NCBI RefSeq assembly: GCF_036711975.1
Contig: NC_091967.1
Span: 11,718,001 to 11,782,000 of the forward strand
Origin: Onthophagus taurus
Lineage: Eukaryota > Arthropoda > Insecta > Coleoptera > Scarabaeidae
DNA: 64,000 nt
Direction of reading: 5' to 3'
The notes beneath the pieces were generated by a model. It made no database searches and was not told the DNA's origin. It was given only the letters and a program-made list of their open reading frames with translations. Shown piece by piece: positions 866-46,804 of the stretch. Each line of letters opens with the position of its first letter. Within the stretch, counting starts at the first letter, position 1. A program made the position numbers and the translations under genes.

Positions 866-3800
866 CTAGACATCTATGTCTTCACCAAGTTCGAATGCAT
901 TATTATCAAAAGTCATACTACCATCGGGACGATTAAAAGTTTCAATACTGCTCGGTCTTGCCGTGGTAGATGGCCTTCCAAACATTTCGTCATTGAATCT
1001 ATCTCCAAAGAAAACTTGACTCGGATTTGAAATTGTGCTCTTTCGCGGTGTGTTAACATTGCTATCAGTACGGCTTCCTGGGGATATGCTACTTCCTCTT
1101 TTCATCGCCGATTTGCGATTTTTAGGACTAGGATCGAAATTATGAACTTCTTCGCCGAAGTTTGCAAATGTTACTCGACTCGTTGGAATATTAGATTTTC
1201 GGAAAATGGTTACTCTGCGTTTCTGCAAATCGGCCAACGTGTTTTTAGGTAATCCAGGTAAATCTTCAATTCTATCTAGGTTATTTAAAAATCGCTCCTC
1301 TAAATTTAGGACTAAATTTCCTTTTCTGCGATTTAGCAGGTGCCGTACGGTTGGTCGTCGACCTGGAGGAAGATTGATTTCCTCATTATCTTCCTCATTT
1401 TGTTCTTGAATCTTTTTCACGAATTCCACCGGATCCATGCTTAAATTTTCTTCTGCATCGACGTGTTTTACCTAAACAAATTGAAATTAAATAAGATGTT
1501 TCATAAAAACTTCATTAAGCACTTACTTGAGTTTCGAAAATATTTAATGAAGTATTTGAAATAATCTGAGAGAAGGTTTGTAATCTATGAATTAACATGG
1601 CTACGAATTGTACTACGAGCAATATTGCGTAAGCGGCCAAGAAAACTATTCCAATAGGTTCCAGTTGAAGATACTCTTTCATAATTCTAATTTCATTTCC
1701 GCTTTCCAGGTACGTAAAGTTGGATTTTACACCGAATGGCCAAGGGACGTGAATAAGATCCTTTTTTAACGTCAGCAAGAAAATAACCAATACAAATATT
1801 GCGTTTATCATGAAAAATGCCAATACCATTTTATCGCGAAGATTTTTTAAATCGGCTGCAATCCGTTTCTAAAAACAATATTCAATCAATAAAAAGATAG
1901 TGTTGAAATAATTTTAATAGATAAGTGTAAAAATTGATAATTATCAGTGCTAGAACATTTAATGAAACGTTTATCGAGTGTTAAGTACCTTATCAGCTGT
2001 GTCATCAATAGGATGTAAATACTCATCCAAAATTCCCTCCCAAAATGCTTCTTCTTTCGAAGTAAGGAAATTGACTTCGCCTCTTTGGATGGATTCGTCT
2101 TCCAACCACGTGCATCCAGATATTTCTTCAGTAAAATCTTCCCTACTTATATCCATTGAATATATTGACTGATCTTCACTATTTTCTTCTTCGATTTCTT
2201 CTTCTTTGCACTCTTCAATGTCTTGAATGTTTAATCTTTCTTCCATTTTATCTAATCGTTCCAAAATCATATTTAAAGGCGTGTTTTGTGCCAGTGTGCA
2301 GCATAAGCACCGAAACAAATTTCCAAAAGATAATTCCATTCCGCCTGCTGTTTCTTCGCCGGCTCCCAAAAATCTTAAAATTTTATTGCTTGTAGTCTGG
2401 GGTTCTGGTTTTTTTGGATTTTTTGCATCTTGTGGAGATTGTGTTGGAACAACTGTGACTTCCCGCGTACCCCATGATACGTTATTCATGTTGAAGACTG
2501 AGTAAATAACGAGTATCATGTACATACAAGGTACTGTAACGTAATATACCACACCAAATTTCAAACAATTTAATTCTTTGGGATGCATCAGTGCCGTAAA
2601 TATCATTTCGCCCGCGACACAAAAGAAGAACAGTGATGAGGGTGCTAATATACCGTCACTGGTAATTTGGAGAAGAATACCCACTAATACTGCCATCATC
2701 ACTAAACTGTATACTCCACTTAGAATTGCTGCAACAAACAGCTTCATTTTTTCTTTTAGTAATTTTAATCGATGGTATTATTATTAAACAAACCTGCACT
2801 TTGTCGTTGGAAACTAATGAGCAAGTAACAACCAAGATTATTAATGGAACTAGATTCCACAACATACTTTGCCATTGACTCATTTGAAAAGCAGCCACAA
2901 AAGCACCTACCAACATGAGGAAAATCGTTCCTGGTCCTAAAATTGTACCGACCATTAAAGCACCCTAAAACAAAACATATTTAGAAATAAATTTGTGATC
3001 TATAAATTAGATAGTTACCTGATAAAGAATATAAAGTTTTGAAATATTATTGTTGGCTTTAATTGTTTGACCGGCTGTCATGAGTAAATCAAGAATATTA
3101 GCTGTAGTGGACGGCATCCATCGTCTTCTTTGATTAAAGAATTCGTTGAATCCCTCAGGACAATGAGTGTAAGCATCAGAAGCAGCTGAATATTCAACCC
3201 GATACCCCCTTTGTAACAATAAGGTACATAACCATCTATCTTCACCCTGATCGAATTGTACGTAATGCAAAGCTTCCGATGATTTAGTAGCATAGCGTCT
3301 CATCACATTATCATCCATAAGGGCTTCTCCTCTGAACAAGGAAAAACAACCGGGACTACAAAGTACACACCCAATAACGTGCTCTGTCGCTTTTTGAAGC
3401 CAATGACCAATGGCATATTCAAACATTTGGTACCAATACATAACACCAGATCCAAGTGGGTGAATTCGCCCACAAGCAGCTCCTAAAGTTACGTCTTTTT
3501 TCATTAAATCTATAAGCAGATGTACTGCCTTGGGTTGAAAATCGATATCACCATCGAGAGCCATTATGTAGGTGTTGGTAGCGCGTAAAACTTTCCGATG
3601 TTGTTCCAAATCAGAAGCCATTAATCTATAGAAAAATGTATCTTAATATCTTTATATTACGATTTTTTGATTACTTACTTATAACCGAGCAGATAGTACA
3701 TGTACATTACTTGGGACCATCTTTTCTTCTTCCTTATTTTTTTAGCGTCTTTTAAATGCGCAATCATCTTTGTATTACCGGGTAGTGTCCACTCTAATCT

Positions 3801-7600: not shown

Positions 7601-10600
7601 TCAAACATTTTCGATGAAACCATAATTTACATCACCAGTTCTTCTCTCCACTCTATTGCAATTTAAATTATCATTATTATCAAACCAATTTTTATCATTG
7701 CCCATTTGGTCAATTATTGCATCTTCTAAATCTGTGTAAATATTACTCTTCGGTAAATCGATTTCTTCATGCCTTCTAGTTGTAAAATTTTTTGTATGTC
7801 GAGTATTCTGGTTTCGTTGGATTTTTTTGATTATTTCTACGGGGTTTGATTGGGTGTTATCCTAAAAAAATCACTGTCTAATACTTTATCTTATCACTTA
7901 ACTAATTAGATTACCTTACGAAGTGTTAGTTTAGTATTACTCATTATTTGAGCAAATGTTCCAAAACGATGGATAAAAATTGCGATGAGTTGAATAAATA
8001 ATAGTAAAAGTGTAGCGAGTACAAGGATAGTATTGAAGAGCTCTAATTCGAAGTTTTCTCCGTCATCATTAAATGGCCATGAAATGGTGATGTTTTTCGA
8101 TGTTAATAGAAACAAAACTGATATAAACATACCATTTACAATAATTAAACTGCTTATAACTTTTTCCCGAAGATCTTTCAAGTCGTCTATCATTCTACTT
8201 TTATTTTTAGCGTCATCAAGTGGATAAAGATATTTATTGAGCAATTTCACCCAAAACACATTTTCTTCTTCGGAAATATTTCCAATACTACCATGTCTCA
8301 AATCGTTATCATTAATCCAAGATTTTTCTGTTACTTCTTCAAATATTGACTCTTTATTTATTTCTCGTGTACCCCAGGAAACTTTATCCATATTAAATAT
8401 TGAATATATAAATAAAATCAAATGCATTGTTGGGATCATTGCGTAGAAAACAGGAAAATATTTCAAGTAGTATATTTCTTGTGGATGACATAGTGTTACT
8501 AATAACAGCTCAACTAAGAATATACAAAAGAAAAGGGTCCATGGAGATGTAAATCCTGTACTCAATAATTCGAACCAACCACTGACGAAAAATGTGCACA
8601 TTAATGGCGTGTAAATTCCACATAATATAAGAGCAATTTGTATCTTAAACAAAAATCAATTATTAATTTATTGTTACTACTTATTAGACCACAAAGGTAA
8701 TAGCTAATTGTTTTATCAGTGGATTGTTCAAATGTGGGATTGGGAGCAGTTCTCCAACAGATATACCGATATATATTTACCTGTATTTTTTCATTATTTA
8801 CGTATCCACAAACTGCAATATATATCAAAATTACAACGAGATTTATCACAAAACTTAAATAAAGGCTGATATCAAACAGAGATTTGCACATGTTAACCAC
8901 TATCCAAAAGATCATCGATGGAGTAATTATGGTCATAATGTTGAATATGTATTGATATATCATAAATAAAATAGATACAGTTTGGTTCACTTTTGTTACC
9001 AAACTTGTTCGTGATAATAAATCGAGTATGTTAGCTGTTGTTGATGGTATCCATCTTCTTCGTTGGTTAAATAATTCTCGAAAACCTTCAGGACAGTTCG
9101 TATAAGCATCGGAAGATGCTACATATCCAACTTTAAATCCACACAATACTAATAATGTTGATATCCATCTATCTTCACCTGTAGTATAAACCTTATCATT
9201 AGTTATATTAATTAAGAATTATATTCTCACCGTGATCGAATTTGATAAAGTGAACTGCCTTAGTAGACTTTGTTGTTAATTTTTTTATGATTGACATAAC
9301 AGCAGTAGCTCTAAAGATTGTAAAACATCCTGGACAGCAGAGAATGCAACCGACAACATTTTCGGATGCTTTGTACATCCAATGACTGATTGCGTATTCA
9401 AACTTTTGATACCAAGAAAATATTCCCTTTCCAACTGGGTGAACTCTTCCACAAGCCGCTGCTAAAGTTTTATCTCGTTTCATGTATTCTAATAACATGT
9501 GAACAGCTTTTGGCCTGAAACGTATATCACCGTCAACCGATAAAATAAACGTATTTTCAGCTTCCAATTCTTTTTGGATGTTGTTTAAGTCGTTTCTTCC
9601 CATAATGCTGAAAACGAATTAATTAAATTAAGATAATTGATATTTTTTGAAAGAAATATTTAATATTACCGATGACCTAATATGTAATATAAATACATAA
9701 CTTGTGACCATCTTTTCTTCGATCTTATTTTGTCATTATCTTTTAAATGAGCAATCAATTTTGTTTTGCCGGGTAAAACCCATTCTAGTTTACCACCATA
9801 AGGAGTAACATATTTGATTGGTTCTTTTAACTTAATATTACATTTATGAACCATAGCAACAACTTCTTTTACACTATTAATTAAGTCTTTCACAAAATCA
9901 TTCATTTGTGCTTGTTGATTTCCTTGCGATGTTTTTGTAAAAGCATGGTCAAAAACAATATGACCTAAAAAAATAAGTATTTTAGTTTTTAAAAAATGAT
10001 ATGTAGGTAATTGAAATTTACTTTCTAATTTGTAGTAATTGATAGATTTAACATAATTCTTTCCAATTCGTCTTAAGCAATGATCTTCATCGAGATACAC
10101 AATCGATTTAAGGAAAGTTATCATTTCTTCTTTAGTTTCGTGCCACATCGTGCCACAAACGTACAACATAGGTTCTACGTTTTCTGTGTCGTTTGAAAAT
10201 GTTTCTTTATCTCCACGATAATCAAAGTCGTCATTACGTCTTCTATTCATTGCTAAATCTTGATCAATAAAGAATGGTTCATAATACGGTCTGACATATA
10301 ACTTTTCAGTGGAAGCTAACGATTCATTTTGAGGAGCTCGTATATGAAAAGTTACCAAAATGAACGACGCCAATAATAATAGGCCCATGAATATTAGCCA
10401 AATATCTTGTGCTTCGTAGTTAATACTATCATTGAAAAATAAATATGATGGAATTATGCTAGAGTAAGCACAATTATTATTATTGGTGTATTCGATAGAG
10501 AGCCCCAAAATTCCTAGAACTGTTACAACTCCTGATAAATGCAATGGCGTCGCATATGATATTCGTTGAATATTAATTTTACAAGCAAATTTTCCAAAAA

Positions 10601-12342
10601 TGTATGTTAAATAAGTTGCAATTATGCTCAGGGTTAGAACCCAAATCGGTGTTAGATAATTGTTAGTAATTACTAAATTTGAAGCATCGTCGTTTTTCTA
10701 AAAAAATAAGATTGAGTAATAATGTCGATGTTTTTATTATGTACAGAACTGTTCAGAAATTATGTGACGCAACTAAACTTTTAAAGCGCGTCAAGTACGG
10801 AGCTAGTTAATTTTTGTATGTGCGTTAATGGGAATGAATCAAGAAGACAACATCCACCTTATTGAATTATAAGGTCAATAAAACCCTTTGTTTTTGATTT
10901 CTGAACAGCTCGATACACATTTCTAAAAATATCTTTACATTTTTAATAATAATATCATGGTGATCAAAAGCATTCTTGAAAGATGAAAATAGGTGATCTA
11001 TTTTTCCATATTGACTCAATTCAATAAGACACATCGTACCGAAAAATAAGATACATTTCCATAACGAAACAATACAATAAGTAAAGTATCGGCTATTTGG
11101 AAATGTTTTACTAGATATTATCATGTCTTTAAAATGAGTCGATTTATAAATGTTTATGTTTCTGATATAATTCTCCCACCATCCAAGCGATATTAGAACG
11201 GCTGCTAAAGGAAGGAACCAAATGTTTGGGCCGTTGTGAAAGATAGTTAATAATATTATTCCTGTTCCTTGGATAATGACGCACAAAGTATGTAAATAAG
11301 CAAACTTAGAAATTTGCTGATTTTTTCCGGTGACATTAAAGCTAAGCGCTGAAATAAAGCGGAAGTATTATAAAAAATAAATTATCTTGAACACATAAAA
11401 ACAATATGATAGATAAAAATTATTGATTGATTAAATTATTGATATCATATAATATATTGGATAAATATTACAAAAAATACTAATTGAATAAATACTACAA
11501 TAGGAACTATATAGGATAAATATCACAACAAATACTAGACAATACCGCAATAGGAATATTTATGAAGTACCTACTTATATTTCTCATTCATATTTCATTG
11601 TAATTTTTATATAGTCTTTAAATCCATCATAACTGTCTTATTTAATAACTTAATAATAAAAAAAAATACTTACATAAAATGGCTGGAATTACACAAAAAC
11701 AATTCATGATGAGACATCCTCTTACAAAATCCGATCTAGGTAAAATGTAAAACACCAAAATCGAATTGCCGATAGTTGATGAAGATTCCCCCAAGAAAAC
11801 AGAGACAAATTCAAGGATACCAGGCATTTTCCATTTTTTAAATAACAAAATTCTCCATGATCTTAAAAACGTCGCTAATTGAGGTACGAAATAAATAAAA
11901 ATCAAAATCCACATCCAAGCTACAATTTCTTCTTCTGGGAGTTCGACAATAAATTCTCCTTCACTGCCAACTATTTAATAATGGAGGTTGAGAAAAGCAA
12001 ATCTTAACTATAAAAACATTAATTACCATTTTCTTTGCAATATTGCTTAGATTTACGGCTAAGTTGAGCAGTTACAAAGAGTAACGTTGCTTTTGATATT
12101 ACAGAACCAAATAAAACCATCAAAAATGTGATGATGTATATTAAAAGTTTGGTAAACCTTTCTAATGTTTTCCATTTCTCGTCTTCTTCATCTGGGCTTT
12201 CATCCGATAATTCTGGGGGTTCGTCAAATATATCCCATTTATCATCGATTTGATCACTAAAAGAAAATATGACTTATTTGAATTAAAATAATTTTTTAAC
12301 TTACGTTTTATTTGAAGATTCATAATTTTGAATCAATGTCAT
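7601..12342 (-). CDS. Chitin synthase B (short form), 10 exons, about 1236 aa
   Basis: A chitin-synthase-family GT2 membrane enzyme of the short subfamily. Exons: 12342-12305, 12256-12027, 11970-11674, 11348-10939, 10697-10022, 9964-9670, 9607-9231, 9178-8781, 8643-7915, 7861-7601; all phases agree. Present are WDIFDEPP near the N-terminus, CGTMWHE, VDGD, EDRW, QRRRW and SWGTRE, so the catalytic core looks intact. After QRRRW the usual GTILGPGTIF membrane segment is replaced by an unrelated-looking hydrophobic stretch (YIFNIMTIITPS). The hydrophilic segment between SWGTRE and the last membrane pair is only about 45 residues, against about 150 in A. This explains most of the roughly 280-residue shortfall. 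The tail keeps NPVEIIKKIQ. The gene is very close to C in both exons and introns. Substrate and product are inferred from the motifs; a changed product or regulation is possible. Confidence 0.88.
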
Positions 12343-13972: not shown

Positions 13973-16900
13973 TCAAACATTTTCGATAAACTCATAATTT
14001 ACATGATCATTTCTACTATTCATTCCATTACAATTTATATTATTATTACTATTATTAATTGCATCCTCCAGATCTGTATAAACACTATTTGGATCATTTG
14101 TTTGTCCGTTATTTTTTCTAGCACGTTGTGTATTGTGTTTTTGAAGAAATTTTTTCGTTAATTTCACTGGATCTGTTTGCGTATTATCCTGAAAATAATA
14201 ATTATCAAAATATATTTGTTATTTATTACTTAATTCACTTACTTTGCATAGTGTTAGTTTTGTGTTACTCATTATTTGGGCGAAGGTTCCAAAACGATGA
14301 ATAAAAATTGCGATTAGTTGAATTAAAAATAGTAAAAGTGCGCCGAGTACAAGGATAGTATTGAAGAGCTCTAATTCGAAGTTTTCTCCATCATCATTAA
14401 ATGGCCATGAAATGGTGATGTTTTTCGATGTTAATAGAAACAAAACTGATATAAACATACCATTCACAATAATAAGGGTGCTGACAACTTTTTCCCGAAG
14501 ATCTTTCAAGTCGTCTATCATTCTATTTTTATTTTTAGCATCATCAAGCGGATAAAGATATTTATTGAGCAATTTCATCCAAAACATATTTTCTTCGTCG
14601 GATATATTTCCAATACTACCATGTCTCAAATCGTTATCATTAATCCATGATTTTTCTGATACTTCTTCAAATATTGACTCTTTATTTATTTCTCGAGTTC
14701 CCCAGGAAACTTTATCCATATTAAATATCGAGTATATAAATAAAATCATATGCATTGTTGGGATCATTGCGTAGTAAATAGGAAAATATTTCAAGTAGTA
14801 TATTTCTTGCGGATGACATAGTGTTACTAATAATATTTCAAGTAAGAATATACAAAAGAAAAGGGTCCATGGAGATGTAAATCCTGTACTCAATAATTCG
14901 AACCAACCACTGACGAAAAATGTGCACATTAATGGTGTGTAAATTCCACATAATATAAGAGCAATTTGTATCTTAAACAAAAATCAATTATTAATTTATT
15001 GTTACCACTTATTAGACCACAAAGTTAATAGCTAATTGTTTTATCAGTGGACTGTTCAAATGTGGCTTTGGAGGTAGTTTTCCAACAAAGAAATATCGAC
15101 GTATATTTACCTGTATTTTTTCATTGTTTACGTATCCACAAACTGCAATATATATCAAAATTACAATGAGATTTATCACAAAACTTAAATAAAGGCTGAT
15201 ATCAAACACAAATTTGCACATGTTAACCACTATCCAAAAGATCATCGATGGAGTAATTATGGTCATAATGTTGAATATGTATTGATATATCATAAATAAA
15301 ATAGATACAGTTTGGTTCACTTTTGTTACCAAACTTGTTCGTGATAATAAATCGAGTATGTTAGCTGTTGTTGATGGTATCCATCTCCTTCGTTGATTAA
15401 ATAATTCTCGAAAACCTTCTGGGCAGTTCGTATAAGCATCGGAAGAAGCTACATATCCAACTTTAAATCCACACAATACTAATAATGTTGATATCCATCT
15501 ATCTTCACCTGTAGTATAAACCTTATCATTAGTTATATTAATTAAGAATTATATTCTCACCGTGATCGAATTTGATAAAGTGAACTGCTTTAGTAGACTT
15601 TGTTGTTAATTTTTTTATGATTGACATAACAGCAGTAGCTCTAAAGATTGTAAAACATCCTGGACAGCAGAGAACGCAACCGACAACATTTTCGGATGCT
15701 TTGTACATCCAATGACTGATTGCGTATTCAAACTTTTGATACCAAGAAAATATTCCTTTTCCAACAGGGTGAACTCTTCCACAAGCCGCTGCTAACGTTT
15801 TATCTCGTTTCATCTGTTCTAATAACATATGAACAGCTTTTGGTCTGAAATGTATATCACCGTCAACCGATAAAATAAACGTATTTTTAGCTTCCAACTG
15901 TTTTTGAATGTTGTTTAAGTCGTTTCTTTCCATAATTCTGAAAACGAATTAGTTAAATTAAGGTTATTGATATTTTTTGAAAGAAATATTTAATATTACC
16001 GATGACCTAATATGTAATATAAATACATAACTTGTGACCATCTTTTTTTCGATCGTATTTTATCATTATCTTTTAAATGAGCAATCAGTTTTGTTTTACC
16101 GGGTAAAACCCATTCTAGTTTACCACCGTAAGGAGTAACGTATTTGATTGGTTCTTTTAACTTAATGTTACATTTATGAACCATAGCAACAACTTCCTCT
16201 ACGCTGTTAATTAAGTCTTTAACAAAATCATTCATTTGTGCTTTTTGATTTCTTTGCAACGCTTTCGTAAAAGCATCGTCAAAAACAATATGACCTAAAA
16301 AAATAAGTAGTTTAGTTTTTAAAAAATGATATGTAGGTAATTGAAGCTTACTTTCTAATTTGTAGCAATTGATAGATTTAACATAATTGTTTCCAATTCG
16401 TCTTAAGCAATGATCTTCATCGAGATACACAATCGATTTAAGGAAAGTTATCATTTCTTCTTTAGTTTCGTGCCACATCGTGCCACAAACGTACAACATA
16501 GGTTCCACGTTTTCTGTATCGTTTGAAAATGTTTCTTTATCTTCACGATAATCAAACTCATCGTTACGTCTTCTATTCAATGCTAAATCTTGGTCAATAA
16601 AGAATGGTTCGTAATATGGTCTAACATATAACTTTTCAGTGGAAGCTAACGATTCATTTTGAGGAGCTCGTATATGAAAAGTTACCAAAATGAATGATAC
16701 CAATAATAATAGTCCCATAAATATTAGCCAGATATCTTGTGCTTCGTAGTTAATACTGTCATTGAAAAATAAATATGAAGGAATTATGCTGGAGTAAGCA
16801 CAATTATTATTATTGGTGTATTCGATAGAGAGCACTAAAATTCCTAGAACTGTTACAACTCCTGATAAATGCAATGGCGCCGCATAAGATATTCGTTGAA

Positions 16901-19900
16901 TATTAATTTTACAAGCAAATTTTCCAAAAATGTATGTTAAATAAGTTGCAATTATGCTTAAGGTTAGAACCCAAATTGGTGTCAAGTAACTATTAGTAAT
17001 TACTGAATTGTAAGAATCGTCGTTTGTCTAAAAAGATAAGATTGAGTACTAATGTTGATGTTTTATTATGTACAGAACTGTTCAGAAATTTTGTGATGCA
17101 ACTAAACTTTTGAAGCCAGTCAAGTACAAAACTAGTTGATTTTTGGATATCTTATTGAATTATAAGTTGTGGGCTAATGTATCACTTTTCGTTTATACAT
17201 TTATAAACTCTCTGGTCACCTACTACATTGTTTCTAAGTACACTAATCGGCTAGAGAGGTCAGTGTTAGCATAGTTCCTGATACTTAATATCCTGGACGT
17301 TTTTCAACATCGTCCATAACATCTTTTAATAATTTCCTTCTAATTTTGTTATATCAATGTAGCTAGTTGGGTTGGGTTGGGTTTAGGTGGAGACACAGTG
17401 TGTTGTGTCATGTCTACATTTATTAAACATTAAAAAGTTTAAACATTAAATCAACTAATAAAAGTTTGCTTGCTTCAGTATCTCATGCCTGAAAATTTCT
17501 TCAAAATAGACGAAGCCTTATCTCGTATAAACACCAAATTCTTTGTTTGGTTATCACAAATGGTTGTGCATCTGCCACTATATTGCTAACCATGCTTGCG
17601 TGGCCTGGTACAAAAATTAGAGAGATTTTGAAATACTGTGTCTGAAATATATTAAAATTATTGCTGAATACAATTTGATCCATCAAGTTGAGAAAAATGA
17701 CGGAGATGATCTTAATTAGACATTTTGTATTTAATAGAACATCTTTGTAAACAGATCAATCAAGATTCAAGGAGACATCTCTAATAGTATTATTAACATA
17801 TTTAGAAAATATAAAATAAATATAACCTTCAAAACAAATAACACCATATTTGATCAAATACAAAATTGGAAAGATAAGATGAACAAATTGAGCAAGAGCG
17901 AGGTTGGGCGAAACATGGAGCGCCATCTATATTAGTGAAGCTGGAAAAATGATAAGACACACTTTATTGGAGATGACAAATTTAAAAATCTTGAATGTCT
18001 CAACGAATCTATAACTACTTTCTTAACGTATTCAACATTCGGATTTGGTCTTCGATAAAATACTTCTTCATCCCACTAATCATCATCCATAAATTATAAT
18101 TTTCTTTTACTATAATTCTTAAATGATATAATATCGTTCGACACGCAAGCGTTATCCCCACCAAATGATACGTTAGTTTTATTCCGCTAATTTGCCTCCT
18201 CTTAGGTGTTATCTCATACGTTTTTATGTTAATTTTCTTTATAATTACTGTATTAAAGCAGTAGTTTGTTTTTGTTGTGGTGTTGAACGTATTAACATTA
18301 TATAAATGGAATAGTTACATTTCCAATAAAAAATCCCTGTGGTTTTTCTATTTAAAAATTCTGCTATATGAGAACAAAACAACTTATTGATTAAGTGATT
18401 GGTAAATTCATCCTTGGTTAGCCATCATATTGAGCATTTATTTTCGCATAATTCGATCATTTTTATTGCGTTTTTATCGTATCAGTGTACATGAATCAGA
18501 TTAACAGCGGCATGAATCAAACACAACATCACAAGAACAAGTGGGAACAGCTAAAATACATTTGCCTAAAAGCGATTTTTTTCGTATATAGTGTTTCATT
18601 AATTTATCTTAAGTGTAACCCGAAATTTTTGAACAGAACATAATCAGTAATCTCCCATAATAATAAGTATCCAAAATTTTAATAAGATAGCAAAGTTATG
18701 CAACAAATCGTCTGGCAACTGACTATTGTTTTTGATTTCTGAACAGTTCGATACACATTTCTAAAAATATCTTTACATTTTTAATAATAATATCATGGTG
18801 GTCAAAAGCATTCTTGAAAGATGAAAATAGGTGATCGATTTTTCCATATTGACTCAATTCAATAAGACACATCATACCGAAAAATAAGATACATTTCCAT
18901 AACGAAACAATACAATAAGTAAAGTATCGGCTGTTTGGAAATGTTTTACTGGATATTATTATGTCTTTAAAAGGAGTCGATTCATAAATGTATAATCTGA
19001 TATAATTCTCCCACCATCCAAGTGATATTAAAACGGCTGCTAAAGGAAGGAACCAAATGTTTGGGCCGTTATGAAAGATAGTTAATAATATTATTCCCGT
19101 TCCTTGGATAATGACGCACAAAGTGTCTAAATAAACAAACTTAGAAATTGGCCGATCTTTTCTGGAGAAATTGAAGCTAAGAGCTGAAATAAAACAAAAG
19201 TATTATAATAAATCAATTATCTGGAACACGTAACAACAACATGATAGATAAACATTATTGATCTCTTAAAATCCGATTATAGCATCCGGACTTAAGTAAA
19301 ATTATAATTGAATAAATATTACAATAGGAATATTTATGAAGTACCCACTTATATTTTTATAACAATGGGATTTAATTTTCAATTGGGGGATATCCATTAT
19401 TGTAATTTTTATGTATCTTTTCATCCATCTGTCTTATTTAATAACTCAATAATAAAAGAACTACTTACATAAAATGGCTGGAATTACACAAAAACAATTC
19501 ATGATGAGACATCCTCTTACAAAATCCAATCTAGGTAAAACGTAAAACACCAAAATCGAATTACCGATAGTTGATGAAGATTCCCCCAAGAAAACGGAGA
19601 CAAATTCAAAGATACCAGGCATTTTCCATTTTTTAAATAACAAAATTCTCCATGATCTTAGAAACGTCGCTAATTGAGGTACGAAATAAATAAAAATCAA
19701 AATCCACATCCAAGCTACAATTTCTTCTTCTGGGAGTTCGACCATAAATTCTCCTTCACTGCCGACTATTTAATAATGGAGGTTGAGAAAAGCAAATCTT
19801 AACTATAAAAACATTAATTACCATTTTCTTTGCAATACGGTTTAGATTTACGGCTAATTTGAGCAGTTACAAAGAGTAATGTTGCTTTTGATATTACAGA

Positions 19901-20137
19901 ACCAAATAAAACCATAAAAAAAGTGATGATGTATATTAAAAGTTTGGTACACCTTTCTAATGTTTTCAATTTTTCGTTTTCTTCATCCAGGTTTTCATCT
20001 GATAATTCTGGGGGTTCGTCGAATATATCCCATTTATCATCGATTTGATCACTAAAAGAATATATGTCTTATTTGAATTAAAATAATTTTTTAACTTACG
20101 TTTTATTTGAAGATTCATAATTTTGATTCAAAGTCAT
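13973..20137 (-). CDS. Chitin synthase C (short form), 10 exons, about 1220 aa
   Basis: The closest paralogue of B. Exons: 20137-20100, 20051-19822, 19765-19469, 19183-18777, 17027-16352, 16294-16000, 15937-15561, 15508-15111, 14971-14243, 14188-13973. Nine of the ten exons equal B in length or differ by one codon, and phases agree throughout. CGTMWHE, VDGD, EDRW, QRRRW and SWGTRE are intact, so it looks functional. The fourth intron is about 1.75 kb against 240 bases in B, because of a roughly 1.55-kb insertion. The last exon and intron and the very end of exon 9 resemble D rather than B: the tail shares TDPVKLTKKF and NGMNSRNDHVN with D. This looks like a gene-conversion or unequal-crossover tract with its edge near 14290. 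As in B, the segment after QRRRW departs from the usual membrane sequence. Confidence 0.88.
17167..18725. other. About 1.55-kb insertion in the fourth intron of gene C
   Basis: Both edges align to the corresponding intron of B: TTATTGAATTATAAG on the left and TTGTTTTTGATTTCTGAAC on the right. The material between them is absent from B. No coding domain or clear terminal repeats were seen. It includes a short run of GGGTT-type repeats near 17372. It may be a decayed transposon or DNA lost from B. Confidence 0.5.
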
Positions 20138-22383: not shown

Positions 22384-25300
22384 TCAAACGTTTTCGATGA
22401 ACCCAAAATTTACGTGATCGTTTCTACTATTCATTCCATTACAATTTATATTATTATTGCTGTTATTAATTGCATCCTCCAGATCTGTATAAACACTATT
22501 TGCATAATTTGTTTGTCCATTATTTTTTCTGTGGGAATGATTATGTTTTTGAAAGAATTTTTTCGTTAATTTGACTGGATCTGTTTGCGTATTATCCTGA
22601 AAATAATAAAGATCAAAATATATTTGTTATTTATTATTTAATTCGCTTACTTTGCATAGTGTTAATTTTGTGTTACTCATAATTTGAGCGAAGGTTCCAA
22701 AACGATGGATAAAAAATGCAATTATTTGAATCGTGAAAAGTAACAGCGTAAAAACTACAAGAATAGTATTAATAAGTTCTAATTCGTAGCTTTCCCCGTT
22801 TGAGATAAATTTAAATGGCCATGGTATGGTTATATTTTGTGATGTCAATAGAAACACCACCGATATAAACATACTATTTACAATGAAAAGAGTACTAATA
22901 ACATTTTCTTGAAGATTTTTCAAATCATCTATGATTCTATCTTTATCTTTAGTATTATCGAGTGGATAAAGATATTTCTCAAGAATTTGAGTCCAAAATA
23001 AATTTTCTTCGTCTGAGAGACTTCCTAAATCTCCATATTTTAAATCGTGATCATCGAACCAAGATTTTTCCGATACATCTTCAAGTATTGTTTCTTTATT
23101 TACTTCTCGCGTTCCCCACGATACTTTGTGCATATTAAATACGGAGTATATATATAAAATTATGAGCATCGTCGGAATCATTATGTAATAAATAGGTAAA
23201 TATTTCAAGTAGTAGATTTCTTGTGGATGACATAATGTTATTATCAATATTTGAATTAGGAAGATAAAGAAGAAAAGTGTCCATGGAGTTGTAAATCCGA
23301 TACTCAATAACTCAAACAACCCATTGACAAAGTATGCGCACATTAATGGTGAATAAATTCCACACAAAATAATAGCAAGTTGTATCTTAAAAAAATTAGG
23401 TTCAATTAGTTTTTTATATTTTAATAACTTTATAGGTAGATTTTTACTTGAGATTTCTACTTAACAACTTATCTCTTGGCGAGCTAAGTCTCCAGATCAT
23501 TTTAATCTCAAATAGTCACCATTATTATCTAATAATACAAACCTGAACTTTTTCACTTTTTACATATGCGCAAACTGCGATGTATATCAAAACTAGAATC
23601 AAGTTTATTATTAAACTCAAAGAGAGGCTGATGTTAAACAAGTGTTTGTTCATGTTAACCACGATCCAAAATATCAACGATGGTGTTAGAAGAGTTATAA
23701 TGTTAAATATGTACTGATAAATCATGAATAAAATAGACACATTTTCGTTGATTTTCGTTACTAATTTTGTTCGAGATAATAAGTCCAACATGTTAGCTGT
23801 TGTAGAAGGAATCCACCTTCTTCGTTGATTGTAAAGTTCTCCAAAACTTTCTGGACAATTCGTGCATGCATCAGCAGATGCAACATATCCAACTTTATAT
23901 CCGCATAATGCTAATAACACCGATATCCATCTATCTTCACCTAATATATAATTGTTTTATATTTATCGCACATTTAATTAGTTTCTCACCATGATCGAAC
24001 TTCATAAAATGAACAGCTTTACTAGATCTGATTTTCAGTTTTTTTAAGATTGACATGATAGCGCTCCCTCTGTAGATTGTAAAACATCCGGGGCAACAAA
24101 GAACGCAGCCGGTTATATTTTCAGATGCTTTATACAGCCAATAACTAATTGCATATTCAAATTTTTGATACCAAGCAAAAATTCCTTTTCCAACTGGGTG
24201 AACTCGCCCACAAGCCGCACCTAATGTTTTATCCCGTTTCATTTGTTCCAATAACATTTCAACACCTTTTGGCCTGAAATGTATATCACCGTCAACCGAT
24301 AAAATATAAGTATTCTCCGCTTCTAATTCTTTTTGAGTGTTGTTTAAATCATTTCTTTCTATAATACTAAAACGAACATTAAATTTTAAATTAAAGTTTG
24401 TTAATACAATATTTACCGATGACCTAATATGTAATACATATACATAACTTGTGACCACCTTTTCCTCGATCTTACTTTATTATTATCTTTTAAATGAACA
24501 ACTAATTTCGTTTTTCCGGGTAAAATCCATTCCAATTTACCCCCATAAGGAGTAACGTATTTAACTGGATCTTTTAGCTTAATATCATTATTATAAACTA
24601 AAGAAGCCACATTATCCACGCTATTTATTAACTCTTTCACAAAATCGTTCATTTGTGCTTCTTGATTTCTTTGTGATGTTTTTGTGAAAGCATCATCAAA
24701 AACAATGTGACCTAAAATTTCCAATTCAAATTTGAAAAAGAAACTAATCAAGCAGTTAACTCTTACTTTCTAATCTATAATAATTTATAGATTTATTAAA
24801 ATAATTTCCAATTCGGGTTAAGCAATGGTGTTCATCAAGAATTATAATCGATTTAAGGAACGTTAACATTTCATCTTTAGTTTCGTGCCACATAGTTCCG
24901 CAAACATACAACATAGGTACTACATTTTCTTTACTATTTGAAACGTTTTCGATATCAAGAAACTTATTATAAAGCCTTCTATTCATTGCTAAATCTTGAT
25001 CAATTAGAAAAGGATCGTAATACGGTCTAACGTATAATTTTTCAGTGGACGCTAACACTTTATTTTGTGGTATGTATATATGACAAGTTGTCATAATGTA
25101 TGACCCTAATAAAAATAATCCCATAAATATTAACCAAATATCTTCTATTTCGAAAACATTTGGGTTATTCAAAAATAAATATGAAGGAAATGTTTGTAGG
25201 GAATCACACTTAATGTTGTTGTTGTTTTCTAAAGAGAGTATCAAAAATCCTAGTGTTGTTACTACTCCAGATAAATGTAATGGAATCGCATAAGATATTC

Positions 25301-27929
25301 GCTGAATATTAATTTAACACGCAAATTTTCCAAAAATATATGTTAAATAAGTAGTAACAACACTTAATATTAAAATCCAAATTGGTGTTAAATTGTTAGT
25401 AAGTGTAATATTAGATGTTGTGTTAGTAACATTTCCGTTTATCTAAAAAATCATCAATTATTTTATTTTGTTATTGTACAAAGTTATCCAAGAGTAGTGT
25501 GCTAAACGAAAATTGAATTCCGTTTATTTTTTCTAGAAATGTAGAACATTATAATAATATAACAAAGAGACATAATTATTTAACGTTGCATGTTGGGAGC
25601 CAACATTTAGATATGCAACTGATAATCATTCAACATCGTTTGAAAATGAGCAAGTGAAAATCATTGGAACCGATCAGAAGTAATTTGGAACAAATTACAA
25701 AGTATTCGGAGCGATTAAGAGCTAAGGAGAAACTTTAAAAACGAAATATGATGAATGTGAAGAATACTTTTCGAGGTTTGCTGAACTGTCATTGATCAAA
25801 AATTGCTTGTTATGATCCCTTCACTTATTTCTCAATAATTTTGCCAACATTTCCAGTCTGATTAAACTTAACTCTTTCTTTTCTGCTTATCATTCAGCTA
25901 TTCCCTTTCATATCTCCAAAGTTTTTTTCATGGTAGCATACTTCCTTTCTAAGTTACCGATGACATCGATCTTTTCTTCTTCTTCTACGTCTCTACATCC
26001 CATGTTAGGCCCTCGCCTCCCTTAACCTTTGCTCCAGTCACTAAAAGATGTGGAAGTGTAGCCATCCGGAATAATTGAACAGGTTTAAGCGTATGATATA
26101 TTGAAATCTACTACAAATATTAAGTTTTGATACTATTGTTTGCTAACAATGAAAGATGTTAGTATTCAGCAGGAGATATTGGAATCAAGAAAAAAGAAAG
26201 TGATATACTGAAAGGCCTAAACTTGCTTTCAAATGTCATTTGAATAAATCGAGGTTTGGTAAGTCCAGCAATCTAGCAGATCAACTAATTAGTACCACAT
26301 TGCTCAACCCAACCCAAGCAAATGTTCCCTACTACCTAAACGCAGACTCTTTTACGTAATCATCAAAATCGATTGTGAGCACCACAAAATTGCGGATAGG
26401 AATCACGAAAATTAAAATTTGTAAATGTTGCATAATCCGTAAAACAACCTGATTCGCCGAAAATGGGATTTAATAAAACCTTGATGAATCTATTGTTCAA
26501 TTCATCAAACGAAGCTTGAGGGAGATAAAGTCTTCTAATAGCTCGTAGCTGTTTGCATGAAGCTCCATAAATGCTAATGGGTGATACTAAATGTCAACTT
26601 TTTCGCGTCAAAGAGAAGCATATTTCTGAACAATAATTACAAATATCTAAAAAAATCTGAAATGAAGTCTAATATATAGGTGGGTATTGAGTATGAGATT
26701 TTCGTTAAGCACATTACTGTTGAATGATTTTTTTTCCTTAAAAATTCATACATTTTGAATAACAATATTGTAGTCATCAAAAGCATTTTGGAAAAATAAA
26801 AACAAGTGGTTTACTTTCCCATGCATTATCCACTCTATAAAACACATCATTCCAAAAAATAATATACATTTCCATAACGAAACAATACTGTAAGTAAAAT
26901 ATCGACTGTTTGGAAATGTTTTACTTGATACAACCACATCGTTAAAAACACTAGTTTTATAAATCGTTTTGTGTCTGAAATAATTTTCCCACCACCCAAA
27001 TGATATAAAAATGACGGATAGTGGGAGATACCACACATCTTGTCCATCGTAGAAAACAGTTAACAATATTATTCCTATTATTTGTATCGCAACACAAGAA
27101 GAATCTAAGCAAATCAATTTTGAGTTTACCTCTTTATCGGTATACTTTGACCAAAGTGCTGTAATGAGATGGATTAATTAAGAAAGCAATTTAAATTGAA
27201 CAATGTTACATCAATCATTTGATATTCTGAGTTATATAAATAGAAAAAAAACTTACATAGCATTGCTGGTATTAAACATAAACAATTCATAATAAGGCAT
27301 CCTCTAATAAAATCCATTCTAGGTAAAACGTAAAATACCAAAATCGAATTGCCGATAGTTGATGAAGATTCGCCCAAGAAAACGGAGACAAATTCCAACA
27401 TACCAGGCATTTTTTAAATAATAAAATTCTTGACGATCTTAAAAACGTGGCCAATTGAGGTACAAAATAAATAAAAACAAGAATCCACATCCAGGTTACA
27501 ACCTCTTCTTCTGAGAGTGTAATAACAAATTCACCTAATTCACCATCAGCTACTACATTATTAAAAGGATCAAATTAAATAAATTAAAAAAAAAAAAAAT
27601 ACCACTACCATTTTCGTGGCAATATAGTTTTGGTTTACGATTAAGATGGGCTGTTACAAAAAGTAAACTTGCTTTACATATTACACAGCCAATTAAAACT
27701 ACAAAAAACGTAATGATACATATCAAAAGTTTGGTAACTTTTTGGACCCCTTTCCATTTATCATTTCCTTGATCTGAATCGGTATCCAATATTTCTAAGG
27801 GATCCTCAAATACATCCCATTTATCATCATTTCGACCACTGCGAAAAGATATATTGTTTAAAGATTTATTTTATGTTAGAATATTGTTCCCACTTACGCT
27901 TGATTTGAAGAATGAAAATGATAAGTCAT
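22384..27929 (-). pseudogene. Chitin synthase D (short form), probable pseudogene
   Basis: A ten-exon relative of B and C. Exons: 27929-27898, 27838-27609, 27552-27257, 27158-26752, 25442-24767, 24711-24417, 24366-23990, 23940-23543, 23385-22651, 22596-22384. Two lesions are visible. Exon 3 is 296 bases instead of 297 plus two extra codons, which fits a 7-base loss just after the codons for MPG (near 27410) and breaks the frame. In exon 5 the codon after TGT in the segment that reads GKFACK in B is TAA (25316-25314) where B and C have AAA. The GT2 motifs downstream (CGTMWHE, VDGD, EDRW, QRRRW, SWGTRE) remain, although SDAYTHCPEG has drifted to ADACTNCPES. Splice sites are kept, so inactivation is probably recent. 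A sequencing error or a polymorphic null allele cannot be excluded. Confidence 0.8.
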
Positions 27930-32200: not shown

Positions 32201-34439
32201 TCTAATAATCGATTTTAAGAATGTTATCATTTCCTCTTTAGTTTCATGCCACATAGTTCCACATCCATAAATCCTTGTGATACTATCCTCTTCTAATATC
32301 GGAACTATATTGCTTGGATCTTTAGATTTTGATAAATATTCCAAGATCTGAGCGTCCAAAACTTCGCCTGGAGTGAAAGCTTCTCTTGGTAACTCATCTA
32401 ATCGTCTTCTATTCATCGCTACATCTTGGTCTATTAAAAACGGTTCATACATAGGTCTGACGTATAATCTTTCAGTTTTTGCAAGTCTTTCTGCTTTGGG
32501 AGTCCAAAGATGAGCAGTTATCCAAACTTGCGAAAACAACCAAAGTATCCAAATCCAACTGAATTCGTTAGCAAGGAAATCGCCCAAGTTATAAAGTGGT
32601 GGTAAGTTAAAAAAAAGATACGGAGGAATACTATTGCTAAATGCGCAATCATCACTTATGTAAAGACCGCATATAGTTATCAATCCAGTTATTGTAACAG
32701 GGACAGCAAGATTAATAGGGAAGGCAAGTCCAAAACCTTGAATGTATGTTTTACATGCGAATTTTCCAAAAACGTAGCAAATATATGTTGAGCCAATGAA
32801 AATTAAGAAAACCCAAACCGGAGTCATGACATCGCTTAAAATTTTTGTTGACATGCTGGGGGATATTGCATCTTCTAAGTAAAGGTCTTTCAATACATCG
32901 ATTGGAGTTATCTATAAATAATAATGGTGATAATAATACGATTGTATATGCAGAAATAAAAAATCTTACTTCTTTCACGGTGATGTTATGAGAATGAAAT
33001 GCGTTAATAAAATTGTCAAACATTGCTGCGGCACCATTTCCATGATTTTTTTCTATCAATACAGCACACAAAAGAAACAAAGCACACTTATAAATTGATA
33101 CTATTGAGTAAGTAAAATAACGACTATTGCTGAATTTTTTATTGGCTTTTACCAAATTCCTCAACCAACCCCTCCGCAAATTCTTATAATCCATAGTAAA
33201 ATTTTCCCACCATCCTATCGAAATAAATATTCCCACCAAAGGAATTAGCTTAACTTCGGAATCATCACTAATTAACGGAAATACAAAAAAAGATGATATT
33301 TGAATAACAACACTGAGCAGATCCAACGCTAATTTTTGCGTACCATCAGCACTTTTTAAATCATTCCTGTAACTATTAATGACGTAATTTTCTTCGTAAG
33401 CCAACAAAAATTTTGATGCAACAACTGAAACAATTCAAATTTATAATGTTAGCCACATAGATATTTGATGGATTTTTTTCTAATATAGTATCTACAAGCA
33501 GATTTGAAACGGGATTATCCGTTATAGCCAAAAGTCCCTAAAACAACTTTTTGAAGAAAACGTCTTTAAAAAAGTCATATCATCAAAACCAATTGAAATC
33601 GCCTGATAGTTTTGAAGTACTTGAACTTGAATAAAGAAAAAATCATCGCTAATCTCACAATTGGTCACTTCAAACGTAAGTCAAAAACGTAGTTGTGTTG
33701 CGTACGAAACAATCACGACGCGTGCAATTAATTTTTTAATTTTGCATTGTGTACTTACTGAGAACTGCTGGAATAAAACAAAATGCGTTTGTTAACATAA
33801 TTCCTTTTAGTACGTCCAATTTCGGTAAGACTACAAACACAAGAATCGCATTTCCAATTGTTGAGCATGTTTCACTGATGAAAACCGATAAAAATTGTGA
33901 TAAGTACGGTATTTTCCAAGACTTATATAGCATGATTCTCAACGATCGTATAAAAGTTCCAAGTTGTGGAACGAAAAATGCAAAAATTAACATCCACACC
34001 CATACTAATCTTTCTTCTTCAGGAACTTCCACCGAAAAGTTTTTAGTTCTGTCTATAATTAGAAAATAAAAGTAAATACAAGTTTATGTTTAGGAGTGTT
34101 TAATTGTTACCCAGCTTTTCGTTGCAATACGGCATTTCTTTAATGTTTAGTTGCGATGTCATAAATAACAAACATCCTTTCGATATAACTGCGCCGCCAA
34201 GAACCACCAAAAACACTACGATGTACGTACAAAATTTTCCTAATTTTTCCGCGAAATTAACATATTTTGTTTCAACCGAAGAGCCGGTTGCTTTATTTAC
34301 GGGAGGATCTTCAAATATATCCCATTTATGTTGCTCTTCAACTCTTAAAATTTTATAATTTTTGTTAAAACCTTAATAATACACATATTTTAATATTTGC
34401 AACTTACTCTCGTATCAAAGGAATCTGTTCTTCGTTCAT
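29256..34439 (-). CDS. Chitin synthase E (long form), 12 exons, about 1422 aa
   Basis: A GT2 chitin synthase of the long subfamily. Exons: 34439-34408, 34343-34111, 34052-33759, 33424-32970, 32911-32122, 32067-31773, 31720-31338, 31258-31032, 30974-29931, 29876-29706, 29652-29430, 29377-29256; every phase agrees. The order is WDIFEDPP, N-terminal membrane segments, CGTMWHE, LDGD, EDRW, QRRRW, the normal GTILGPGTIF membrane cluster, SWGTREV, a charged loop (a lysine-rich run, then a glutamate-rich run), two membrane segments and a tail with MNPVKFVKKLQ. The last exon is short and ends in a serine- and lysine-rich stretch. Exon 9 joins blocks that are separate in A. It is closest to F in the C-terminal part. 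It looks intact. Confidence 0.9.
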
Positions 34440-39200: not shown

Positions 39201-42200
39201 GTTGATAATGACCATATTTTACACGTTTAAAAGTTTAGTTTTCTGCTTCAATATTATATCTGTTTGCACAAAAACGTCATTTTAGCAAAATGAAAGCTGG
39301 AAATTAGCACGAAGAGAAAAAAAACAGACATAAATTAGTAAACAACTTACACCACACATCCACTCCATAAAACTATTAATTGATTCTCACTTTCTAATTC
39401 GTAATAATCCGGAACTGGATAATCTAAATATGACTTAATAATTCTTCTAGCGCATTGATCCTCATCTAATCTTATAACTGATTTTAAGAACTCCATCATC
39501 TCATCTTTCGTTTCATGCCACATGGTTCCACATGCATATATCCTCGAAATACTATCTTCCTCCACATCAACCGGCACCATTCTTCTCCCACTCCTATTCA
39601 TTTCCAAATTCAATAGAGCTTGTCTTCTATCAAACTCTTCTTGTCTCTTACTTTCTTTCAATGGTTGATCAAGAATACGTCTGTTCATCGCTAAATCTTG
39701 ATCTATGACGAATGGTTCATACATTGGTCGCACAAACAGTCTCTCAGTTTTTGCTAAACGTTCACTTCTTGGTGACCAAATATGCAAGGTGATCCATACT
39801 TGCGATAACAACCAAAGTAGCCACATCCATGAGTGTTGTTGTCCGACGAAATCTTTTAAGTAATGAATAGGTGGTGAGTCAAAAAATAAATATGGTGGGA
39901 TGGTGTCTGTGAAGGAACATTCATCTTCGTTGTGAACTCCACACATTGCCACAAGTCCGGATATTGTAACAGGAACGACAAGATTTATAGGAAATGCGTA
40001 CGATAATCCTTGAATAAAGACTTTACAACAGAATTTTCCAAATATATAACATAAATAAGTTGAGCATACGCAAATTATAAACAGCCAAACCGGAGTCATT
40101 ACATCAGATTTTATTAATATTCCAGGTCCAATTGAGACTGCTTCATTAATCGATAATTGATTCATCAGAAGCGGTTTAACTTCACGAATTGTTATGTTAT
40201 GTTCTCCAAAAACATCATTGGCAAATAAATGAGTTACATCACCTTCATAACTGTACTCAGTAAAAACCATCATCATAAAAAAGATAAAACATTTCCATAA
40301 TGAAACAAAAGTGTACACGCAATATCTGCTATTGGAGAATTTTCTGTTAGCCTTAAGAATTTGTCGTATTATACTTTCTTTTTCTCTAGAATCTTCATTT
40401 TTCTTTACATTATCGCTATCATAACTATAATTTTCCCACCATCCAGCAGATATAAAAATAGCAGCTACTGGAATACACCAAAGAACTGGATCATCTTCTA
40501 CAATTGGCCACATGAAAAATACCGTTCCTTGGATGAGGATACAAAGTAAATCTAATCCTAATCTATAGAAAACATCCGGATCAGAAACGTTATTTGTGAA
40601 ATCATATGATGGTCGACGTTTCGATTTGTATTTATCGTAAAGTTTTGATGAAAAACCTGAAAAAATTAATACTTGATAGGTTTTATAACATTGTTTTTTG
40701 CCATCCAGATAACAATTTACAACAAAACAATCTAATAATGTTCTTAATTCATTCATTTAATTTATGAATGAACCATGATAAATATTTTTTTTAATCATGT
40801 GTCATTTTATTAATAAATTTAATGTTAAAAAATTCTAGAAAGTAAATGAAAAATAAAAAGGATTTAAAACTCTGTTGCTAAACAACGATAATAATCTAAA
40901 GATAGTTATATTTTTATGATAGAAATGCGTAATAAATCATGATAAATCATATCGATCAATGTACGTCACCTACTTACTTAAAACAGCCGGCACGAAACTA
41001 AAAGCATTCGTAAGCATAATGCCCTTGACGACATCTAAAGAAGGTAAAATGACGAAAACTAAAATTGCTGTTCCTATTGTAGAACAAGTTTCGCTAATAA
41101 AAACCCCAAGGAATTGCGCAGTTGTCGGTTTTCTCCAGTCTTTGTACAGTAAAATTCGTACGGATCTTATAAAGGTGCCGACTTGCGGTACAAAAAATGC
41201 GAACGTTATCATCCACATCCAAACGGCCTTCTCTTCCAATGGTAAAGTTACCGTAAATTGTTTATTGCCATCTGTAACAAATAATTCCGAATGATTGATA
41301 AGTTATCATGCGACAGGATGTAATTTTTTTAATGGTCTTTGATTATAAGATTAGTCTAGATTTTTGTACGATCAGTATTTCTTAGAATTAAACAGGATGT
41401 AATTAGTTAATATCTTGATAATAAATTAGATTTTGTGATTCATTTTTTACAACGGAATTGTATTTTATTCTAGATTTTTATTAAATTATTGGAAATTTAT
41501 TATGTGCCTTTACAATTATAAAAATCACATTTTGTAACCGAAGATGATACTTTATTGGAGTAATTTCAGTATTTTGCTTTACTTTGTTAACAAACCAAAA
41601 ATTCTTTTAACTTTACATTAACTCCATTCTAAAAAAAAAGGGATCATCAATCAATATGTCCAGAATGGTGAGAGATCGATCAATTGTCTTATATCAGGAC
41701 CTACAAATATTCCTTCTTTAATTTTGGTATCACTGAGCCTAGGAAATTTATTTAACTCAAGCTCACGCCATGCTCAAGAGGAGGAGGAAGCAACAATACT
41801 TCATTAGGCAGATTCTGCACTACCCTAAAATTTCCACATATTTGCCATTTAACCGCTGCATATTTTTTCCAGAATCTTGGGTTTTGAAATTGCTCTTCAC
41901 TAGAACAATCGAGTTTGGCATCTTCTTCAATAGAACTCGATAATCTTAATGGACTCAAAGATTGCTTTGGTGCCGAAATTTCAAAGAATTGGTGTTGATA
42001 GACATCTGCATATTTTACGGAATTTTGGCTTGTTAGAGAAGTCCTTCATTAAATGTTTGTCAAACAGAACTACCAGTCTTCTGCATGGTGCTTGGGTTCA
42101 CGCCACTATATTGCTACTCTAAAAGACATTTCTTTTTCTATTAGAAATGGACTTGGGTTAAAGTCCATTTAGCTTTATATCGTACCAATGTGATACATGC

Positions 42201-43696
42201 AAAATTTTGGAAAAATAGTGATTAAAGAATGTATGATAATGAAAAAGACTAACTTCTTTCATAATGTCCAGAAAGTGGTTTTACAGTAGACCCAAAAAGT
42301 ATTTATGTAACATTTAGAATTTGGAAGAAAAATACAAGGTGCTTAAAGTTGAATAAAAATAAGATATACAAAATTATAAACATGCAAACAAAAGTTGGTA
42401 GCTTATAATCTCATCGGAAATGATGTGCTAAAAATAAACAATTTTTGCGTTTTATGGCATAAATTTTGAGGAGGAAACATAAGATATTTTATAGTTTGAT
42501 TTATATGTACCACAAAACAAAAACTGAATTGCTACGACAATTTGGCAGCGGTAGACCTTAGAATTTGAAAGAACAAATGTAGTAAGGACACAATATGTAA
42601 TTCAACATAGCACTGCGCTTATGGGGATTAAATGACTGAGTTTGCTTATTGAGCAGAATAACTGCACTACAGCAGAATACTTTAACTTGTACTATGCATT
42701 AAAGTTGAATTACTATTAGCTCAGCTTATCAGACTGAGCACAAATATCACAGAGATCATTAACATTGATTTTCAAAGAATATTGTAAAATGATACAACAA
42801 TCGTGATATAATTCAAAATAATAAATTTCATCCTATTCATTAAATATGTGTATTTGTTTGTATTTTCATCAAGAGTGATACATATCAAATTTTAATCAGA
42901 TTTGAGATGGAACGAATTTCTTAATGGTTTCAAGAGATTTGTATCTCAACGGTACTTAAATTTTAAGTGAGTGTAAACTCGAAATTTATTTTAAACATCA
43001 TGGATTTAATTCAATAGAAATTCCTAACACTGCGAGCACCAGGATTACAATTGTAAAAGGCGGTTATGATATAACAGTTATTTGAAAATAGTGGTTAATC
43101 ATAACTGTACATGTTAGGAAGATATTTATCTCATCATTGTCATTAATTATTCGTTTTTGGTCTCACCTATGACAAAAAAGGATGTTATGCGTTTTTTGTC
43201 AGGGTGCTATTGAACAAAAACATTAGTGTACTAACTAAATACACAGTTTTGACTTTAATTAAATTAAATTAAGAAAAGAAATAATGAATTGGCTACATTT
43301 AATCTGTTAATGTTATCATAAAATTTCATCTCATGTACTCAGGTAAGCATTCAATTTTAATTACCTAATTGTGTTCTACAATACGGTCTTGTTTTACCAC
43401 TTAATTGTGATGTCATAAATAATAATGATCCTTTCGAAACAACGGCTCCACCTAACACCACTATAAATCCTATGATATAACAAAAAAATTTTCCGAATTT
43501 TTCACCAAAATCAATCCATTTTGTTTCAACGGTTGAACCAGATTCCACGGCAGTTGGTGGATCTTCAAAAACGTCCCATTTCTTTTTTTCTTGTTCAGGA
43601 CGTCTAAAAATATATTTCTTAATTTTTTCCTAAAACTCAAGATTTCAAAAAATCTTACAAGGGATTAAGAGGTTCCATCTCTTCGTTATTCATCAT
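36227..43696 (-). CDS. Chitin synthase F (long form), 9 exons, about 1470 aa
   Basis: A GT2 chitin synthase. Exons: 43696-43659, 43603-43365, 41271-40978, 40656-39391, 39125-38831, 38773-38164, 38105-37002, 36846-36450, 36396-36227; phases agree. Motifs in order are WDVFEDPP, CGTMWHE, LDGD, EDRW, QRRRW, GTILGPGTIF, SWGTREV, an acidic loop, a final membrane pair and a tail with MNPVEYIKKLQ and a basic end. Exons 4 and 6 are uninterrupted where E has introns. The second intron is 2.1 kb. Of the six, F looks the most complete relative to a classic insect enzyme. Whether it is the ancestral copy cannot be told from the sequence alone. It looks intact. Confidence 0.91.
41272..43364. other. Second intron of gene F (2.1 kb)
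   Basis: AT-rich DNA with no recognisable gene or element. A 68-codon minus-strand open frame (41958-41752) gave no recognisable domain. Confidence 0.4.
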
Positions 43697-46517: not shown

Positions 46518-46804
46518 TTTCACTTTGAACTCAAAGAGGTATTTCACAACAAATGTCAAATTTACTATATTTACTGAAATTAGCTGAATAAGATAGCATA
46601 CTTTGATAAATTTGATTTAATTTTTATTTCGTAATTTGACTTTAAATTATATTTTTGTTGTGATAAAACTTACTTACGGATTTAAACAATAATTTAATAT
46701 TGTATAATATATATAATATAATATATTAATTTATGTATTAGTATAATATATTATATACAATATATATAATATACCGAAAAATCACATTAAAGTTTCGATG
46801 TGAC

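Follow-up and report, generated by a model that had tools for sequence, protein, structure and literature searches.

Two chitin synthase (CHS) genes have been described for most insects in the available part of PMC9631950, and two insect types of the enzyme, one for the cuticle and one for the gut lining, are distinguished in the available part of PMC12431666. What is to be made, then, of a locus in the dung beetle Onthophagus taurus where six such genes stand in a row, and are they additional copies of one of the known types or is there something different among them? The window considered here is the whole stretch of 64,000 nucleotides that was analysed, and all positions without another label refer to it.

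The array was confirmed as real. As claimed in the initial annotation, the minus strand carries a head-to-tail row of six CHS genes at positions 866–43696, and both ends proved to be exact in the spliced alignment of O. taurus proteins from which the gene models were obtained, position 866 being the last base of the stop codon of gene A and position 43696 the first base of the ATG of gene F (Table 1; gene coordinates include stop codons). In the direction of transcription, the order is F, E, D, C, B and A, with intergenic gaps ranging from 576 bases (B to A, the smallest) to 2246 bases (D to C, the largest). The description of all six as complete or near-complete had to be corrected, since D is a pseudogene broken by a loss of 7 nt and an in-frame TAA; A, B, C, E and F are intact and have no internal stop. 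Protein P0001 of O. taurus is 100% identical to gene F. The array stands in an assembly that we infer to be the published long-read one of 290.0 Mb, obtained with 86.6x PacBio HiFi and Omni-C data according to the available part of PMC10942260.

The domains PF03142 and PF23000 were found by Pfam in all five intact genes above the curated cut-offs, the PF03142 scores being 113 bits for E, 104.9 for A, 104 for F, 100.1 for C and 95.7 for B. The motifs DxD, ED, QRRRW and WGTRE are kept in the same five genes, and DxD, ED and QRRRW are also present in the readable part of D. The six gene models together have 54 introns, 53 of the GT-AG type and one, in E, of the GC-AG type; this donor belongs to intron 3 of E (33373–33745) and is the sole non-GT donor.

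Table 1. Positions in the window of the CHS genes, of local features within them and of the upstream neighbour of the array
Feature	Position	Strand	Basis
Gene A, intact class B CHS, 9 exons, 1513 aa	866..7024	(-)	P0003, LOC111426060; spliced alignment, 2 aa differences, stop TAG
Gene B, divergent subclass, intact CHS of 1236 aa in 10 exons	7601..12342	(-)	P0121; spliced alignment, 0 differences, stop TGA
Gene C, divergent subclass, intact CHS of 1220 aa in 10 exons	13973..20137	(-)	P0122; spliced alignment, 0 differences, stop TGA
3' tract of C resembling D (last part of exon 9 to exon 10, with intron 9)	13973..14310 (high edge approximate)	(-)	Informative sites
Gene D, pseudogene, B/C subclass, 10 exons still recognisable	22384..27929	(-)	Frame lesion and in-frame stop
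In-frame TAA, exon 5 of D	25314..25316	(-)	Sequence; own-frame reading after the lesion
Loss of 7 nt relative to C, exon 3 of D	27407..27420 (approximate, near 27414)	(-)	Sequence comparison
Gene E, intact class B CHS, 12 exons, 1409 aa	29256..34439	(-)	P0002, LOC111426064; spliced alignment, 3 aa differences, stop TGA
Gene F, intact class B CHS, 9 exons, 1470 aa	36227..43696	(-)	P0001; spliced alignment, 0 differences, stop TGA
Ribophorin I-like gene, upstream neighbour of F, marks the upstream end of the array	45157..46616	(-)	PF04597 in two pieces, E 1.4e-19 and 2.1e-19

A PF03142 scan of the whole 290.8-Mb genome (33 contigs), carried out exon by exon with only the best candidates scored, so that a decayed fragment elsewhere could escape, gave 12 matches, 10 in the array and two in one gene of contig C6. 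The latter is the class A gene kkv, and its place in a FastTree tree of 64 sequences is among beetle class A proteins, that of Popillia included. With five intact class B genes, the pseudogene D and kkv, this beetle does have more CHS genes than the usual insect two, as had been proposed. kkv resembles the genes of the array in family and motifs and has 50–53% identity to A, E and F; it differs from them in being single and unlinked to the array, in having an alternative exon pair and in the complete absence of changes at 322 near-invariant alignment columns, of which 2 are gapped. Both versions of this exon lie within the kkv locus (C6:7339000–7348900), and class A CHS genes typically carry such a pair. 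In the public Popillia protein P0036, both kkv exon versions stand in series, which is probably a fault of the gene model.

The origin of the array was studied with two trees, one of 64 CHS without D (FastTree) and another of 19 sequences including the readable part of D (IQ-TREE). In the first, the five intact copies fall among beetle class B proteins, not class A ones, and the support of the array clade is 1.00; in the second, all six copies form one clade inside class B (UFBoot 100). Compared with insect CHS-A and CHS-B, the copies are not scattered, and the proposed local duplication is supported by this single clade together with four introns common to the five intact copies, at alignment positions of about 16 (phase 2), 95 (phase 1), 634 (phase 1) and 732 (phase 2). 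The similarity of the copies in motifs and intron positions, on which the initial annotation had relied, was found for the motifs and for these four introns and not for the remaining intron positions, which are patchy among the copies. Two introns of E also occur in B and C, and D has one of the two exactly and the other shifted by four alignment columns; A and F have one intron each in common with B, C and D.

The branches of A, E and F (0.31–0.51 substitutions per site in the 19-sequence tree) are comparable in length to the branches of other beetle families, and it is therefore probable that the earliest duplications predate Onthophagus by a wide margin. Four deep lineages can be recognised from the trees, namely A, E, F and the ancestor of B, C and D, and within the last of these D diverged before B and C separated. 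The attachment of the B/C/D lineage differs between the trees, being with A in the FastTree one (0.69) and with E in the IQ-TREE one that includes D (85). None of four topologies for its placement was rejected by the AU test (p 0.11–0.82), bp-RELL and c-ELW exclude just the topology uniting A, E and F, and the introns shared with E, A and F conflict over the nearest lineage. No other named scarab class B CHS occurred among the matches listed (the best 120 of 356, 99 of 99 and the best 120 of 284), and Popillia was represented by a class A protein only among the matches listed in the homologue searches.

The copies do not make up a uniform set. A, E and F have the look of normal class B synthases, and B, C and D are a fast-evolving and strongly derived subclass, belonging to class B by descent and untypical as its members. 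To describe this difference, 220 proteins were reduced to 197 and, once near-duplicates had been removed, to 154 other CHS, whose arthropod membership is partly assumed; the exclusions were six entries from Onthophagus, four from fungi, two from nematodes, three from molluscs and every protein of <1100 aa. Columns conserved in at least 97% of the 154 proteins were considered near-invariant (322 columns), a measure that leans to class A, because the homologues were sampled by similarity to the array genes, with the best 120 of longer match lists, and class A proteins are numerous. On this measure, 5 columns are changed in F, 13 in E, 13 in A, 82 in C, 85 in D and 87 in B, the value for D being counted on the part after the lesion only, which leaves 21 further columns gapped. 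With leave-one-out columns (95%), changes were found at 110 of 380 in B and 105 of 380 in C; among the 154 others, a set from which very divergent CHS elsewhere may be missing, the maximum is 59 of 386, and over all rows the median is 1.

The most widely conserved positions were largely spared. Of the 68 columns in common with four fungal CHS, 58 are unchanged in B and 61 in C, 10 and 7 universal columns having been lost. DxD (D736 and D738, in F numbering), PGCF, E840-D841 and QRRRW are retained in both proteins, and the DxD, ED and QRRRW motifs are catalytic. Changed or gapped columns of the GT2 core number 33 of 109 in B and 32 of 109 in C; in B, they also amount to 20 of 49 in the membrane part between QRRRW and WGTRE and 14 of 37 in the C-terminal part. 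Both proteins are altered at G920, G924 and G926 of the membrane motif GTILGPGT and at D740 beside DxD. A simple hydropathy count gave 16 membrane segments for B, 15 for C and 12–15 for the others, which indicates no obvious loss of a helix block. Odd residues over the same membrane motif (F 917–937) are seen in the Photinus protein P0021, a class B isoform model, where a wrong exon is the probable cause.

Another peculiarity concerns the loop between WGTRE and the next conserved block, which was measured in 160 of 205 proteins, 45 without one of the two anchors being dropped. It comprises 41 residues in B and C, the shortest value measured, 125–145 residues in A, E and F, and a median of 178 in the 160 homologues; elsewhere among them, a loop of <60 residues was found only in the tephritid fly protein P0163 (54). 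In class A enzymes, a coiled coil situated here is needed for full localisation and activity and not for rescue, and WGTRE is needed for ER exit in Kkv, as stated in the available part of PMC9894549. WGTRE itself is retained in B and C. According to the accessible text of PMC12431666, Drosophila Chs2, which makes the peritrophic matrix, is without a coiled coil after WGTRE. The fly protein P0163, a higher-fly class B CHS from Zeugodacus, is similar to B and C in its short loop and in its long branch (1.12 vs. 1.20 for the B/C stem, FastTree), and it differs from B in the number of near-invariant changes (42 of 387 vs. 110 of 380). Convergence at the residue level was considered for this pair and rejected, as the same residue is present at just 2 of 21 shared changed sites.

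The stem of B, C and D is 1.21 long vs. 0.37 for E (IQ-TREE, 19 sequences), and Tajima counts with kkv as the outgroup are 249 for B vs. 82 for E. A dN/dS of 0.169 between B and C (bootstrap 0.125–0.231, codons 1–1110) indicates that both are under purifying selection. Among 75 near-invariant columns changed in both B and D, the same residue stands in 54 (72%), vs. an overall B-D identity of 70%, and because these two values are so close, the sites seem to be relaxed and not fixed for some new function. The changed sites of B and C overlap those of other fast CHS more than expected and rarely carry the same residue, which points to weaker sites.

Pseudogene D died recently, since its own frame past the lesion contains exactly one stop in the remainder of the gene and dN/dS is 0.20 for B-D and 0.19 for C-D. 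A protein of D was absent from 99 of 99 matches to the B query. The copies of this subclass also bear traces of recombination. Over nine of ten exons, the identity of B and C is 93–98%, with D differing from the two; in the last exon, B-C identity is 71% and C-D identity 90%. In three 3' windows up to the stop of C, the values are 93, 82 and 90% for C-D vs. 74, 67 and 76% for B-C, and the informative sites flip from uniting B and C against D to uniting C and D against B in the 150-column window starting at column 4200, the stop of C being at column 4580. The 5' flanks of B and C can be aligned (88 and 83% in two windows), the sequences after the stop cannot, and dS between the two genes is 0.16. 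Judging from these patterns, an exchange of sequence between C and D at their 3' ends is plain, and conversion would be the likelier mechanism. A simple unequal crossover was rejected as the origin of C: the likeness of C to D ends at about the stop codon, with the next window unalignable (43%), and a conversion-like tract fits this better. Intron 4 has 241 bases in B (10698–10938) and 1749 in C (17028–18776) with matching ends, suggesting an insertion or deletion of 1.5 kb after the B-C split. An older annotation contains a protein, P0123, that is a mosaic of B and C; this may be additional evidence of recombination or an assembly fault.

Summarizing these data, we consider it probable that the array arose by an old tandem expansion of class B (CHS2-type) synthases of the peritrophic matrix and includes one remodelled subclass, in which B and C are specialised. 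From what is known of the family, A, E and F would be working class B synthases, which would polymerise GlcNAc from UDP-GlcNAc at the GT2 core and extrude the chain through the membrane helices to the midgut peritrophic matrix. Their assignment to peritrophic chitin would follow from class B membership, as in Tribolium CHS2, the knockdown of which lowers midgut chitin (available part of PMC12431666). Tribolium CHS2 and Drosophila Chs2 resemble the array genes in having the same Pfam domains, a place in the beetle class B clade, and WGTRE and QRRRW; the setting is different, with two CHS genes in most insects as described (PMC9631950) and five intact class B genes and a pseudogene within 43 kb here. 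B and C probably still catalyse, since the universal motifs and purifying selection remain, and they would do so with modified membrane segments and a loop after WGTRE that is nearly gone. It is likely that they are a specialised second class B form, differing from the others in partner, place, time or polymer and not in dosage alone; that they make a new kind of product is only possible. The whole picture suggests that chitin production was extended and partly remodelled, probably in the gut lining.

A bolder version of this reading makes B and C a third functional kind of insect CHS, derived from class B, in which the membrane exit path was rebuilt and the loop after WGTRE nearly lost, selected for a structurally different chitin or for a mixed complex with A, E or F in the gut of a dung feeder while the copies recombined; in our opinion, this is doubtful. 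It is unlikely that the expansion was a matter of dosage only, with redundant class B copies kept for quantity and B and C relaxed and heading to loss like D. Such a view takes support from the death of D, from near-invariant changes in B and D that agree no more than the gene average and from the spread of the B and C changes over the whole protein, the GT2 core included, but it is opposed by dN/dS values of 0.17 (B-C), 0.20 (B-D) and 0.19 (C-D), by frames intact over 1236 codons in B and 1220 in C, and by the retained catalytic motifs. A fast stem followed by long constraint is also unlike simple decay.

The departure of B and C from chitin synthesis, with the fold kept in inactive subunits or for some other GlcNAc product, seems improbable. 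Although these proteins are the most divergent CHS of the set by the leave-one-out count and are changed at the three glycines of GTILGPGT and at D740 by DxD, their DxD, ED, QRRRW and PGCF motifs are retained and in PF03142 score they come close to the other copies. Very improbable is an assembly artefact, in which haplotypes would have been joined end to end in the whole array or a part of it. The close likeness of B and C in nine of ten exons and the mosaic P0123 might be explained in this way; however, intron lengths and spacing differ between the copies, A, E and F are just 56–61% identical in protein, B and C have different 3' ends as well as a dS of 0.16, and the assembly is apparently the HiFi and Omni-C one (PMC10942260, available part).

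The locus presents a common gene family in an unusual arrangement, with an unusual subclass among its members. A species that has five intact genes of the gut class, two of which are altered at approximately a quarter of the positions common to nearly all the relatives sampled, offers a natural experiment on the parts of the enzyme that determine polymer, translocation and targeting. Such natural variants are useful because Drosophila Kkv and Chs2 are not interchangeable and their chimeras fail, as reported in the available part of PMC12431666. The array also opens the question of whether peritrophic matrices diversified with diet in dung beetles. These insects process large volumes of microbe-rich food, and this diet might have favoured more gut chitin or a different one. 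Among the literature titles listed, none describes an array of class B CHS genes from any dung beetle; the word "chitin" is absent from the main text of PMC10942260, the paper on the O. taurus assembly, and was not found in PMC9239855.

Several minor observations concern the surroundings of the array. The ribophorin I-like gene consists of two open frames just upstream of F. The flanks include a protein phosphatase 2C gene on the side of A and, on the other side and beyond the window, genes of a tetraspanin and an allantoicase. A long coiled-coil-like open frame without a Pfam match lies on the plus strand at 51580–52593. Shorter tandem arrays occur at 46806–47322 and 62222–62511, with units of 83/122/205 bases and 81 bases, and a 172-base tandem unit, repeated in 5.9 copies with 94% matches at 55517–56529, is a possible satellite.
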